A stretch of DNA of 52,638 nt from positions 1 through 52,638 of the forward strand of contig WGMU01000054.1 of the NCBI GenBank assembly GCA_016124895.1, given 5' to 3'. Positions 19,935-52,638 of this stretch are shown here, in pieces. The DNA comes from a bacterium (GTDB lineage Bacteria > Planctomycetota > Planctomycetia > Planctomycetales > Planctomycetaceae). The stretch's first letter is position 1. Each line of letters begins with the position of its first letter. The position numbers were made by a program, and so were the translations under genes. The notes beneath the pieces were generated by a model. The model saw nothing but the letters and a program-made list of their open reading frames with translations, was not told the origin of the DNA and searched no databases.

Positions 19935-20069
19935 CTGACGCAAAGGCGCTCAGACGCAGAGCAGCGCAAAGATTTGTCCAAACTCGGCAATTCCAGCGAC
20001 AGCCAATTTTGGCAGCCTTCACTGTTCAGACTCTTTGCGAAACTTAGCGTCTTCGCGGCTTTGCGTCAG
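19935..20069. repeat. Dispersed palindromic repeat, 'GACGCAAAG' family, copy 1
   Basis: The left arm begins CTGACGCAAAGGCGCTCA and contains GACGCAGAG. The right arm ends TAGCGTCTTCGCGGC then TTTGCGTCAG. Arms pair imperfectly over about 35 bases around a 60-base centre. Two further copies lie at 21823-21961 and 39836-39935. Confidence 0.8.
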
Positions 20070-27095: not shown

Positions 27096-27171
<76 letters not shown>

Positions 27172-38733: not shown

Positions 38734-38795
38734 TCAGGGCTTCAGGCGGGAAGACTCAGGAATGGGTTCAACAGAACTTTGCGAACTGAATTGAT

Positions 38796-38853
38796 AGCGG
38801 AAGGGCGCAAGCCCTCCGGCAACGCGGGGCCGGACGGCTTGCGCCGTTCCGCT
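38796..38853. repeat. Palindromic repeat, 25-base arms
   Basis: The left arm 38796-38820 (AGCGGAAGGGCGCAAGCCCT...) pairs with 38829-38853 (...GGCTTGCGCCGTTCCGCT) over 25 bases with a short loop. It lies between the TPR-peptidase and the DUF4159 gene. Confidence 0.8.
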
Positions 38854-38904
38854 AAAAGGGAACAGGTTTCAGCACGTTGCTCAGGCAGAAACGAACGGCT
38901 CATC

Positions 38905-39828: not shown

Positions 39829-39835
39829 CCTGACT

Positions 39836-39935
39836 CTGACGCAAAGGCGCAGAGTCGCAAAGGAACGCAAAGAGGAACTGATTGATGAATTGCTGTTTTC
39901 TTTGCGAATCTCTGCGTCTTAGCGGCTTTGCGTCA
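39836..39935. repeat. Dispersed palindromic repeat, 'GACGCAAAG' family, copy 3
   Basis: Left arm CTGACGCAAAGGCGCAGAG and right arm CTCTGCGTCTTAGCGGCTTT then GCGTCA. It lies in the 136-base gap between DUF4159 and moxR and so would be transcribed if the two are one operon. Confidence 0.85.
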
Positions 39936-39964
39936 AACTCGTACCTGCCTGCCTGAGGAATCCA

Positions 39965-41163: not shown

Positions 41164-41361
41164 TTGAGCCGCGAAGCGGCGGCAGCCTGTAGCCTCGGGC
41201 GTAAGCCCGAGGTAACGGTCCGCCCAATTTCATTGAGCCGCGAAGCGGCGGCAGATGTCTGTTCTGGACTCTGCTGCCGCCGCTTCGCGGTTCGACTTGT
41301 GTTTGCTCCTGGTCCGTGGGCTGACGCCCACGGCTACAACCTGTCGCCGCTTCGCGGCTGA
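41164..41361. repeat. Nested repeat cluster
   Basis: The 22-mer starting TTGAGCCGCGAAGCGGCGGC occurs directly at 41164-41185 and 41233-41254, and inverted at 41274-41295. Between them sit hairpins CCTCGGGCGTAAGCCCGAGG and CGTGGGCTGACGCCCACGG, and a last partial copy, CGCCGCTTCGCGGCTGA, at about 41345-41361. This looks like several insertions of related short elements into one another. Confidence 0.75.
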
Positions 41362-41375
41362 ATCGCCCAACAATC

Positions 41376-49164: not shown

Positions 49165-49240
49165 GTAGGGTGCGTGAAGCGCAGCGTAACGCACCGTCAA
49201 TTTGGGAGTGGTGCGTTACGCTGCGCTTCACGCACCCTAC
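49165..49240. repeat. Perfect 31-bp inverted repeat inside the operon
   Basis: The left arm 49165-49195 and the right arm 49210-49240 are perfectly complementary over 31 bases (GTAGGGTGCGTGAAGCGCAG...), with a 14-base loop. It starts six bases after the coiled-coil gene stop and ends 27 bases before the next start. It would form a very stable mRNA hairpin. Confidence 0.95.
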
Positions 49241-49266
49241 AGATTGCAAACCGTAGAGCGTCAAAC

Positions 49267-51783
49267 ATGATTTCCTTCAGCAGCCCGCAATGGTGGATTC
49301 CGGCAATCCTTCTGCTGGTCGTTGCGGCGCTGCTTGTTGGCTGGGCCGCGAAGCGGGGCCGGCTGACTGGGCAGGCTCGGCTGCTGACAGTGGGCTGCAA
49401 GCTGTTTGCTCTCGCCTTGCTGGCGCTGTGCCTGATCGAGCCGGTCTGGAGCGGTACGCATCCAAAGCCGCACTCGAACCTGTTCGTTCTGCTGGCTGAT
49501 AACAGTCGCAGCCTGATGGCTGAGGTCGAGAACGGTGACAGGCAGAGGTCTGCGGGACACGATTCGCTGGCGAAGAAAATCACCGCGGAACTGGCGCCGC
49601 GCAATGGCGAGGATCACTGGCTCGACCGTCTGGCGCAGGATTTCGAACTGCATGAATTCTCATTTGACCGGCGTCTGCAGCATCTGGACATGCCCACTGA
49701 TCTGAAATGGGATGGCCCGTCGTCGGCGCTGAAATCCGCGTTGCGGGATGTTTCGCGGCGCTTCGCCGGACGGCCGACGGGCGGCATTCTGTTACTCAGT
49801 GACGGCAACGCGACGGACGTTTCGACGGAGGAACTGACGTCGGTGTTGAACGAGATCGACGAACTGCCGCCGGTGTATCCCGTTGTCTTTCCAGAAGGTG
49901 CTGGAAAGCCGGACGTGCTGATCACGACGCTGTCGGTCAGCGAGACGCCGTTTGAGGATGCTCCGGTCACCGTCCAGTGCGACGCCGAGTTTCACGGTCT
50001 GGCAGGACTGGCAGCCAACATCGATCTGCTCGCTGAGTGCCGGCTATTGAACTCAAAAGGCGAATCGGTCGCGGTTGAGCGGCAGCCTGTTGATCGATCG
50101 TCGGACGTGCTCGCCTTCAGGCTGCAGTTCCGTCCGGTCGTGATCGGCGTCGCTTTTTATCGGGCAGTCGTTTCCGTGCGGGATCTTTCGGGCGACCGCG
50201 AAGAACCGCTTGACGAGCTGACGCTGATCAACAACTCGCGGATCGTGCAGATTCAGCGCGGCAGTACGCCGAAGCGGATTCTGTACCTCAGCGGGCGGCC
50301 GAACTGGGAGTTCAAGTTTCTGCGCCGCTCGCTGGAAGACGATCAGAACGTCGACCTGATGGCGATGATCCGCGTGGCGAAGCGCGAGGCGAAGTTCGAT
50401 TTCCGCGGCCGAGACGGCCAGTCGAGCAACTCACTGTTCCGTGGTTTCAAATCGAACGCCGATGAAGAGACCGAGCGCTTCGACGACCCGGTGCTCGTGA
50501 GGATCAACACAAAAACGCCGGAGGAACTTCGTGGCGGATTTCCTCAAGACAAGGACGAGCTGTTTCAGTTCGACGCGCTGATTCTCGACGACATCGAAGC
50601 GTCGTTCTTCACGACAGCTCAACTGATGCTGATCGAGAAGTTTGTCAGTGAACGCGGCGGAGGCTTTCTGATGCTCGGCGGAACCGAATCGTTCCTCACC
50701 GGCGATTACGACCGAACACCGGTTGCCGATCTCCTGCCGGTGTACCTTGACCGGGCTGAGTTCCCCGCGGAGAACGAGTCAGTCACGCTCGACCTGACCC
50801 GCGAAGGCTGGCTGCAGCCCTGGGTGCGGCTGAGGTCAACCGAGTCCGAAGAGCGGACGCGGCTGTCGTCGATGCCCGGCTTCCGCACGATCAACCCGTC
50901 GCACGGCATCAAGCCGGGGGCTTCTGTTCTCTCAACAGTGAGCGATCAAAGCGGTGCCGTCTGGCCGGCGCTGGTGACGCAGCAGTACGGCCGCGGTCGC
51001 GCAGGGGCGGTCATGGTTGGCGATCTGTGGCGGTGGCAGTTGCGGAACACCGAGGATCATCCGGACGACCTGGCGCGCGCCTGGCGGCAGACGCTGCGCT
51101 GGCTGGTGGCGGACGTTCCACAGCGTGTCGACGTGCAGACGCTGCCGGCTCCGGATGTCGCACCGGAGGCTGTGCGGATTCGAGTTCGCGTGACCGATCA
51201 GGAATACTCGCCGCTGGATAACGCGCGCGTCGAAATCGCCGTTCGCAGCTCAGAATCTCCGCCGCGGGAAGCAGCCGAGTCATCAGAACGAGAGACTTCC
51301 GGTGACGGAATCGAGGTCGCGAAAGCCGATCGTTCGCAGGAAGCGGCGGCCGTCGAAGCGAAGCCTGAGACGCTGCCCGTTCTGACTCTGAATGCCGAAG
51401 CGGCGCTCGATGAAGGCGGTGTTTACACAGCGGTCTTCGTCCCGCAGGAACCGGGAACGTGGACGCTGACCGCATCAGCCTTGACGGCGGACAGTGAGAC
51501 GCTCGATGCGGATGAGACCGGCGTCATGTTCGATCCGGAAGTCGACGAGTTCCGTCATCCGGGGCTGAACCGCGAACTGCTGGAACAACTGGCCGAGCGA
51601 ACCGGCGGGGAAGTCGTCGAAGCGGAGAGGCTCGACGATTTTGTGTCGGAACTGCAGAACCGGCCGGCGCCGGTCATGACGACCTGGACGATGCCGCTGT
51701 GGGATCAGCCATACGTCTTTTTAGTCGTGCTCGGCTGCCTGCTCGGCGAATGGGGCCTGCGCCGCACGAAGGGACTGCCATGA
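49267..51783 (+). CDS. VWA/glutamine amidotransferase-like membrane protein
   Basis: An 838-residue protein. ATG 49267 begins the standard N-terminus (SSPQWWIPAILLLVVAALLV), with a second helix LLTVGCKLFALALLALCLI. The VWA-like region has VLLADNSRSLM (DxSxS). A GATase1-like domain follows: KRILYLSGRPNWEFKFLRRS, LILDDIEASFFT and GGGFLMLGGTESFLTGDY. A beta domain (about 640-760) and a last membrane helix (PYVFLVVLGCLLGEWGL) end it. No GATase catalytic Cys-His-Glu is evident, as is usual for these Bat-locus homologs. The stop overlaps the next gene by four bases. It lies 27 bases after a perfect hairpin. Confidence 0.92.
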   Translation: MISFSSPQWWIPAILLLVVAALLVGWAAKRGRLTGQARLLTVGCKLFALALLALCLIEPVWSGTHPKPHSNLFVLLADNSRSLMAEVENGDRQRSAGHDSLAKKITAELAPRNGEDHWLDRLAQDFELHEFSFDRRLQHLDMPTDLKWDGPSSALKSALRDVSRRFAGRPTGGILLLSDGNATDVSTEELTSVLNEIDELPPVYPVVFPEGAGKPDVLITTLSVSETPFEDAPVTVQCDAEFHGLAGLAANIDLLAECRLLNSKGESVAVERQPVDRSSDVLAFRLQFRPVVIGVAFYRAVVSVRDLSGDREEPLDELTLINNSRIVQIQRGSTPKRILYLSGRPNWEFKFLRRSLEDDQNVDLMAMIRVAKREAKFDFRGRDGQSSNSLFRGFKSNADEETERFDDPVLVRINTKTPEELRGGFPQDKDELFQFDALILDDIEASFFTTAQLMLIEKFVSERGGGFLMLGGTESFLTGDYDRTPVADLLPVYLDRAEFPAENESVTLDLTREGWLQPWVRLRSTESEERTRLSSMPGFRTINPSHGIKPGASVLSTVSDQSGAVWPALVTQQYGRGRAGAVMVGDLWRWQLRNTEDHPDDLARAWRQTLRWLVADVPQRVDVQTLPAPDVAPEAVRIRVRVTDQEYSPLDNARVEIAVRSSESPPREAAESSERETSGDGIEVAKADRSQEAAAVEAKPETLPVLTLNAEAALDEGGVYTAVFVPQEPGTWTLTASALTADSETLDADETGVMFDPEVDEFRHPGLNRELLEQLAERTGGEVVEAERLDDFVSELQNRPAPVMTTWTMPLWDQPYVFLVVLGCLLGEWGLRRTKGLP

Positions 51784-52638
51784 TGCGCCAACGATTCCTT
51801 GATCTCAGAGTGCTCGTTCCCGCGCTCCGCGTTGGAACGTCGCTGCCGCCACTCTGCGGTGATTGTGGACGCGGAGCGTCCAGGTCTGCGTTCCCACATA
51901 GAGCGTGGGAACGAGTTGTTGTTGCCGTTGTCGCGATGCTTGCTTTCTTCGTTTCTCTGTCCGCCAGCATCGCACAGGACGCAACGCAGCCAGCGGGATC
52001 TGAGCACCGACTGGTGCTGGTCGTACGTGGAACGTCCGGCACCGAGGAGTACGGGCGGCAGTTTGATGAGTGGTCGGAGCGCTGGCTGCAGGCGGCGAAT
52101 CAGGGACGTGCCACAGCCGTGCGGATCGGTCCAAAGGAATCCGCTCAAGCAAACAACGGCGGCAGTGAGACCGATCATCAGAAGCTGCAGAAGATACTCA
52201 GCACGTTTGCAACGAAGACCAGTGATGAAGCGAACGCTGAACTCTGGCTCGTGCTGATCGGGCACGGGACGTTTGATGGACGCACGGCGAGGTTCAATCT
52301 CGAAGGGCCGGACGTTTCTGCCGAGGAGCTGTCGCACTGGCTGGAGTCGCTGCGCTGCCGGACAGCGATCGTCAACTGCGCGTCGTCCAGCGGACCGTTT
52401 CTGAAAACGCTGGCCGGAAACGGGCGAGTCGTCGTCACGTCAACGAAAAGCGGAGTCGAGCAGAACTTCTCGCGGTTTGGCGATCACCTGTCGCAGGCGA
52501 TCGGCGATGCGGCGTTCGATCTCGATAAGGACGGGCAGACGTCGCTGTTCGAGGCGTTTCTGTCGGCGAGCCGGCAGACGGAGCAGTTCTACGAAACCGA
52601 GGGACGGCTGGCGACGGAGCACGCGCTGCTCGACGACA
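51780..52638 (+). CDS. Caspase-fold protein with repeat-interrupted signal peptide (3' end outside window)
   Basis: An open frame from ATG 51780 (ATGA overlap) to the window end, 286 codons. Residues about 11-45 (LVPALRVGTSLPPLCGDC...) are encoded by a palindromic repeat; without it MRQRFLDLR joins VVVAVVAMLAFFVSLSASIA into a clean signal peptide. The mature part shows a caspase/C13-like core: ELWLVLIGHGTFDGRTARFN (His of the dyad), SAEELSHWLESLRCRTAIVN, then CASSSGPFLKTLAGNGRVVV. Aligned with 'DACHSG' of caspase-like enzymes, the nucleophile position is Ser (codon 52383-52385), with a Cys two residues before. LDKDGQTSLFEAF is EF-hand-like. Activity is uncertain; the fold call is by motif only. 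Confidence 0.75.
   Translation, partial: MMRQRFLDLRVLVPALRVGTSLPPLCGDCGRGASRSAFPHRAWERVVVAVVAMLAFFVSLSASIAQDATQPAGSEHRLVLVVRGTSGTEEYGRQFDEWSERWLQAANQGRATAVRIGPKESAQANNGGSETDHQKLQKILSTFATKTSDEANAELWLVLIGHGTFDGRTARFNLEGPDVSAEELSHWLESLRCRTAIVNCASSSGPFLKTLAGNGRVVVTSTKSGVEQNFSRFGDHLSQAIGDAAFDLDKDGQTSLFEAFLSASRQTEQFYETEGRLATEHALLDD
51813..51915. repeat. Palindromic repeat within the caspase-fold gene
   Basis: The left arm 51813-51839 (CTCGTTCCCGCGCTCCGCGT...) and right arm 51889-51915 (...ATAGAGCGTGGGAACGAG) match at about 21 of 27 positions. The inner part has GGACGCGGAGCGTCC. The length keeps the gene's frame open. Confidence 0.85.

Follow-up and report, generated by a model that had tools for sequence, protein, structure and literature searches.

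A dispersed four-hairpin palindrome lies in frame in the leader of a coupled gene of a Planctomycetaceae bacterium and is probably translated

The locus

We analyzed a 52,638-nt window, contig WGMU01000054.1 of a bacterium of the family Planctomycetaceae (genome G000), in which a 103-bp palindromic element lies in frame within the region encoding the putative signal peptide of a gene that we call gene B. Coordinates are positions in this window, and G001 denotes a congener. Our analysis indicates that the element was probably inserted into the leader of gene B and is probably translated from the start codon coupled to the upstream gene A, as part of an enlarged signal peptide. The features of the locus are as follows.

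49174..51783, + strand: gene A, GATase1-like by Pfam (longest open reading frame [ORF])
51768..51774, + strand: Shine-Dalgarno (SD)-like sequence GAAGGGA, inside the last codons of gene A, identical in G001; duplex energy -5.0 kcal/mol
51780..51785, + strand: coupled start ATGATG, overlapping the gene A stop codon TGA (51781-51783)
51780..52638, + strand: gene B, truncated where the contig ends; its caspase-like product is probably secreted
51813..51915, + strand: complete four-hairpin dispersed element, 103 bp, with CTC...GAG ends
51815..51839, + strand: hairpin A (CGTTCC..GGAACG), with an 11-bp stem in the consensus; 93.3% of cells paired in 19 copies
51847..51861, + strand: hairpin B, 96.5% of cells paired
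51867..51881, + strand: hairpin C, 95.6% of cells paired
51889..51913, + strand: hairpin D, the inverted counterpart of hairpin A, 89.5% of cells paired
51915..51974, + strand: VVVAVVAMLAFFVSLSASIA, the hydrophobic core plus c-region of the putative signal peptide, from translation and hydropathy; predicted helix at residues 40-65
51936..51938, + strand: rival internal start ATG, without an SD-like sequence; -2.2 kcal/mol

The frame is open from ATG 51780/51783 through the element into gene B, whose product would begin with MMRQRFLDLR, continue with the element-encoded residues, and resume with VVVAVVAMLAFFVSLSASIAQD. Translation of this frame gives an n-region of about 45 residues containing Arg and Cys, and the overlap of ATGATG with the gene A stop codon fits translational coupling, both as the original prediction had proposed. 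A Sec signal peptide would combine a charged n-region, a hydrophobic core, and small residues at -3/-1; the hydropathy of the leader peaks at 3.14 from residue 46, and by reading, SIA precedes QD. In the AlphaFold model (mean pLDDT, 77.2), residues 1-35 have pLDDT values below 50 and residues 40-65 form a helix.

Structure and distribution of the element

The window copy is bounded exactly by the usual ends of the element, CTCG...CGAG, at 51813 and 51915, and contains two 27-nt inverted arms. Its RNA fold is predicted at -59.7 kcal/mol against a mean of -38.9 for shuffled sequences (z, -6.3), and none of 200 shuffles folded as well. Nineteen aligned copies, 103 to 117 bp long, had 93.0% of cells paired, with both sides changed in 10 of 34 pairs. 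The covariation score of the four-hairpin alignment was matched by none of 500 shuffles, a control limited by the kinship of the rows and by the structure having been drawn from the consensus. Sixteen of the 19 copies begin with CTCG and all end with AG; hairpins A and D adjoin the ends, and end-to-end pairing of the element accounts for 438 of 507 cells.

A DNA search of the window genome returned 26 matches, some of which represent one place on both strands, and a covariance model built from the 19 copies gave 79 two-strand matches, corresponding to 40 distinct places. The palindrome had been called dispersed from its sequence, and the further copies that this implied were found. With stricter filters, the model had matches in 69 of the 170 family genomes. 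Scanning 51600-52100 against Rfam yielded one match, far under the gathering score. For comparison with miniature inverted-repeat transposable elements (MITEs), which combine terminal inverted repeats with target-site duplication, 12-nt flanks were inspected by eye, and no duplication was seen.

We considered a REP-associated tyrosine transposase (RAYT; REP, repetitive extragenic palindromic sequence) as the mover of the element. The window genome contains eight Y1_Tnp matches, and a strong element copy (3.4e-19) was present on one side at one of these eight loci (L046). Weak element matches (E values, 0.018 to 0.37) surround a Y1_Tnp gene in contig C132, covered by the overlapping loci L040 and L044; they possibly belong to another hairpin family. 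A role of a RAYT as mover was not established.

An insert-free site in the congener

The gene pair is present in G001 too, and there the gene A end, SD-like sequence, and ATGATG match those of the window, yet the G001 gene B encodes MMHRRLLLLAAVVAASVSSQSFAQ, with no insert, while the gene B proteins of the two genomes are 78% identical. The N-terminal segment is therefore not common to all orthologs, a comparison on which the original prediction had staked itself.

We infer the following course of events. After the split from G001, an element of about 104 bp would have entered gene B some 11 codons from its start; alternatively, it would have arrived before the split and been lost in G001. Ribosomes ending gene A would restart at the overlapping ATGATG and read through the element, yielding a signal peptide whose 45-residue, Arg- and Cys-containing n-region precedes the old hydrophobic core. 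Signal peptidase would then remove the element-encoded part, so that the mature caspase-like protein would be unchanged and the insertion tolerated.

Where translation starts

Duplex energies (in kcal/mol) were computed with a generic anti-SD tail. The coupled ATG at 51780 has the same energy as its G001 counterpart, and a GTG at 51810, likewise upstream of the element, has -5.8. The internal ATG at 51936 lacks a charged n-region as well as an SD-like sequence. No in-frame start besides the coupled ATG was found before the mature anchor in G001. In G007, values of -7.9 and -2.0 were obtained for the coupled start and the internal ATG, respectively. Among loci lacking an open coupled frame, the most favorable internal ATG had -6.8 (L012), -10.9 (L093), -12.9 (L094), or -8.7 (L108). 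Judging from these sequence features, a start at ATG 51936 appears disfavored, and translation through the insert seems the likeliest.

Several observations weigh against this reading. An exact deletion of the 103-bp element throws the downstream sequence out of frame, and one must therefore assume either that the net insertion measured 102 or 105 bp or that a small indel followed it; the earlier statement that removing the insert restores a textbook signal peptide holds for the peptide and not for the DNA. The open frame by itself is weak evidence: 88 of 114 frames in the 19 element copies are free of stop codons, compared with 55% of 5,000 random 104-nt stretches of the window, and with such a stop-poor element a chance open in-frame state is not improbable (approximately 1/3 x 0.77). 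The SD-like energy of the coupled start is only moderate. Nor is the energy contrast between locus classes clean, since at L135, a closed locus, the internal energies are weak (-4.2/-5.3). Conversely, strong internal sites are present at loci with an open coupled frame, namely L136 in G106 (GTG, -11.4; TTG, -12.9), L107 (GTG, -11.6), L110 (TTG, -9.6), and L031 (ATG, -7.8), and an open frame is therefore no proof that the coupled start is used. Several orthologs have, by reading, short, charge-poor signal peptides resembling the product of ATG 51936. By a hexamer model, for which 26 ORFs of the window served as training set, the 38 codons before the window copy score -4 and the element +5. Lastly, G104, G105, and G099 carry repeats at the gene A-gene B junction without an open coupled frame, as does G097, whose repeat is a partial copy of the window's own element family.

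Several of these points bear on an alternative that the original prediction itself had named, in which translation of gene B begins at ATG 51936 and the element is confined to the untranslated 5' leader. The signal peptide would then be MLAFFVSLSASIA, and any effect of the hairpins would be on mRNA stability or coupling. We consider this alternative unlikely, though it is the most serious competitor. It draws on the orthologs with short signal peptides, on the four genomes just listed, and on G138, G139, and G141, in which an ordinary signal peptide begins after a repeat-like stretch. PMC3733652 also states that many N-terminal REPs are probably untranslated. This alternative has to place the start at a codon without an SD-like sequence, and it leaves aside that the coupled start, its SD-like sequence, and the frame have all been kept.

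Gene A-gene B junctions in relatives

We fetched 131 ortholog loci, a set of 30 (some from other families of the class) and one of 101, omitting some cut or weak matches. The gene A end was recognized in 91 loci; 40 in which the pattern was not found were set aside. The distance to the mature anchor was below 125 nt in 60 of the 91, and 55 of these 60 had an open in-frame start at the gene A end. In the 31 long junctions (at least 125 nt), such a start was open in 19, closed in 2, and missing in 10. The 19 open long loci represent 10 genera, with 8 loci from genus g72, and loci of one genus are not independent.

At the corresponding place, G007 has an unrelated inverted repeat with 37-nt arms, in frame, with 56 matches in its genome, many of one arm only. 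Among the matches listed, junction segments were also repeated within their own genomes in G106, G119, G104, G105, G099, G097, and G140 (3' arm). The frame from the gene A end is open in G106, G119, and G140 and is closed or lacks a start in the other four. The strong internal GTG makes translation of the G106 repeat doubtful. In G119 the repeated segment is the stretch between its two short palindromes, and the insert lies after the hydrophobic core. The insert of G016 (L031) was rejected as a repeat, being single copy in its genome, and segments of G141 (728-797), G162 (798-835), and G142 (836-939) were not counted, as each matched only its own place among the matches listed.

The window itself contains six further palindromes, at 19935-20069, 27096-27171, 38795-38854, 39832-39940, 41164-41363, and 49165-49240. 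Relative to the 39 called genes, three lie between genes and three at the 5' end of a called ORF. With six others in 52 kb, a repeat at one junction in a fair share of relatives may be background, and we do not claim that the junction is an insertion hotspot. Those at 19935-20069, 39832-39940, and 41164-41363 separate codirectional called genes, and by eye the first two look similar to the CAAAGACGC-type repeat that lies in frame in the G007 ortholog. The palindrome at 49165-49240 is a perfect inverted repeat of 31 nt (GTAGGGTGCG...) that overlaps the longest gene A ORF at its 5' end. Gene A perhaps truly starts at ATG 49267, in which case this palindrome would also lie at an operon gene boundary.

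Copies of the element in other genes

Coding potential was scored with the hexamer model for 39 of the 40 copies. Sixteen lie between called genes; of the 23 that overlap a called ORF, 11 have ORF sequence on one side only. A positive coding score over at least 30 codons on both sides was obtained for three copies (L288, L057, and L296), and the window copy fails this two-sided test because of its negative score before the element.

The best control for an in-frame copy in a clearly coding place is L057, where a half copy follows FecR and VIT domains (Pfam) between conserved flanks. It is in frame in both G000 (L057 1601-1691) and G001 (L313 1707-1777), with cmsearch values of 3.7e-8 and 1.3e-10 and a four-codon indel beside it. 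The ratio of nonsynonymous to synonymous divergence (pN/pS) is 0.42 in its 30 codons versus 0.37 in the other 146, a small sample. The more distant loci L314 to L317 gave no covariance-model match at that place. At L288 (1501-1610, contig G000:C87), a complete copy stands in frame before a UvrD helicase domain; the N-terminal part of the gene looks PHP-like, although PHP was not found by Pfam, and the G001 match ends short of the element site. At L296 (1501-1625, contig G000:C158), several repeat-like fragments lie in a single open frame between glycosyltransferase and acetyltransferase domains (Pfam), perhaps a fusion bridged by repeats.

A regulatory role and decay of gene B

The intergenic copies, together with the strong RNA fold and the positions of the six other window palindromes between genes or at ORF 5' ends, bear on a further possibility, namely that the repeat is chiefly a regulatory RNA or DNA structure, such as an mRNA stabilizer or damper between genes A and B, in a frame that is incidental. 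We regard this as improbable. The element is not conserved at the G001 site, and unrelated families occupy the corresponding junction elsewhere, which argues for tolerance rather than for one function. Disruption of gene B by the insert, followed by decay, can be practically dismissed: although the 3' end of the gene is unseen, as the contigs of both species end within it, the mature part has a pN/pS of 0.28 relative to G001 over 206 codons, and no stop codon occurs in the frame as far as the contig end. Up to that point, the earlier claim that the insertion had not killed the reading frame held.

The two contigs, that of G001 being the end of L010, stop no more than about 15 codons apart. For the gene B product, "caspase-like" is only a fold-level label: among the matches listed, Foldseek returned MALT1, metacaspases, caspases, and legumain (best E value, 4.1e-6), at TM scores of only about 0.3 to 0.5. 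The Pfam C13 match was below the cutoff (E value, 0.084). As to the His/Cys dyad of caspase-like enzymes, the His of GHG is invariant across 30 rows of the alignment, and the Cys of NCAS falls outside the 90% list. Among the best 80 relatives listed, the top ones are mostly metagenome-assembled genomes of Planctomycetota, with Verrucomicrobia and Phycisphaerae also present lower down.

A repeat arm as possible signal-peptide core in genus g72

In G131, G133, G134, G137, and G140, the mature part of the gene B product comes immediately after a leader ending ...G[IF]WSLV..WTL.FGN...; the G135 version of this ending, LALVVHWTLGFGDW, is diverged. The codons for the ending belong to a dispersed inverted repeat, CCAATGTCC...GGACATTGG, and form its 3' arm, which is in frame in the five species and altered in the sixth. 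The arm-encoded hydrophobic segment can be seen at L098 (1326-1494), L103, L111, L113, L127, and L121. Of seven places examined elsewhere in G140, G104, G141, and G142, both arms are present at six, with scores of 38 to 64 for the weaker one, and a single arm at L319.

In all six leaders, the start just after the gene A stop codon (ATG or GTG, at +0 or +3) has a duplex energy of -4.9 to -8.8. Apart from a TTG in G135 (+156), each later in-frame start listed ahead of the mature part is located upstream of the arm or within it, so that export would require the arm to be coding. Selection on the arm is ambiguous: its pN/pS is 0.29 in 15 codons, a value based on 16 synonymous differences from 10 overlapping pairs, and its synonymous divergence (pS) is 0.16 versus 0.42 in the mature part. 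With pS so far below that of the mature part, purifying selection on the protein is indistinguishable from conversion by other repeat copies or DNA constraint.

Other members of the genus differ. G138, G139, and G141 have an ordinary leader, MTAFLMLLC..GWADP, after the repeat-like stretch, and G132 has an ordinary-type leader, MTSFLLLLSSMGWVDP, plus an open upstream start. In G142 (L116 803-1000), a different repeat-like stretch (AATGACGAATGA...) fills the leader, and the LGFENWTFAD that follows looks like a remnant of the g72 arm.

Relation to known repeats

Repeats inside genes are prior art. PMC3733652 (2013) describes REPs inside ORFs, in frame in Rickettsia, and cautions that many of those at N termini may go untranslated. 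It reports two Xanthomonas species with distinct REPs at roughly the same recB site, UvrD/REP helicases among REP hosts, and Planctomycetes among the host organisms. It also mentions that N-terminal Rickettsia palindromic elements (RPEs) are reported to be expressed in vivo. The window insertion had been presented as a rare direct view of a repeat turned into coding sequence, and rarity is not borne out, given those in-frame repeats in Rickettsia and other bacteria, the three further copies with a two-sided coding score, and the other in-frame repeats at this junction in related genera.

Compared by description, the window element is like RPEs (PMC3733652) in being small, palindromic, dispersed, and in frame in protein genes; it differs in belonging to another phylum and in having four hairpins and CTC/GAG ends. 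Their typical occurrence in frame in unrelated protein genes was seen for 3 of 39 copies. GTAG/CGTC REPs, as the same source portrays them, are similarly short palindromic units, often paired in opposite orientation and mostly intergenic, with some inside ORFs. The REP-type palindromic unit of 20 to 40 nt in many copies has its equivalent in hairpins A and D, each spanning 25 nt, at 40 places. Unlike those REPs, the window element carries no unpaired GTAG/CGTC tag and has two extra internal hairpins. It also resembles REPINs (PMC3116915, 2011). In a REPIN, two inverted hairpin units form one dispersed unit, and hairpins A and D of the window element do likewise, whereas its spacer is structured by hairpins B and C and, as noted above, a RAYT link was not established. 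Our searches of the open-licence literature turned up neither this element nor any signal peptide derived from a repeat, and six peptide strings had no match there.

Significance

The window case is a real, well-placed example of a known phenomenon, in which the repeat is most likely translated. Its value lies in a clean comparison of two species, one carrying the insertion and the other lacking it, and in a second in-frame copy, that of the FecR-VIT gene, kept across a species split at a synonymous distance (dS) of about 0.5 to 0.6. The boldest part is the g72 case, a sister genus in which the signal peptide seems to have a repeat arm as its hydrophobic core. Tentatively, and at somewhat less than even confidence, we suggest that in Planctomycetaceae the leader of the coupled gene B has been repeatedly rebuilt from unrelated dispersed palindromes, which would have lengthened the n-region here and in G007 and, in G140 and other g72 species, become the core itself. 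As signal peptidase would discard the leader, secretion signals may act as a nursery in which repeats turn into protein. This one gene family makes it testable whether genic REP-like repeats are translated, and whether leaders come first.

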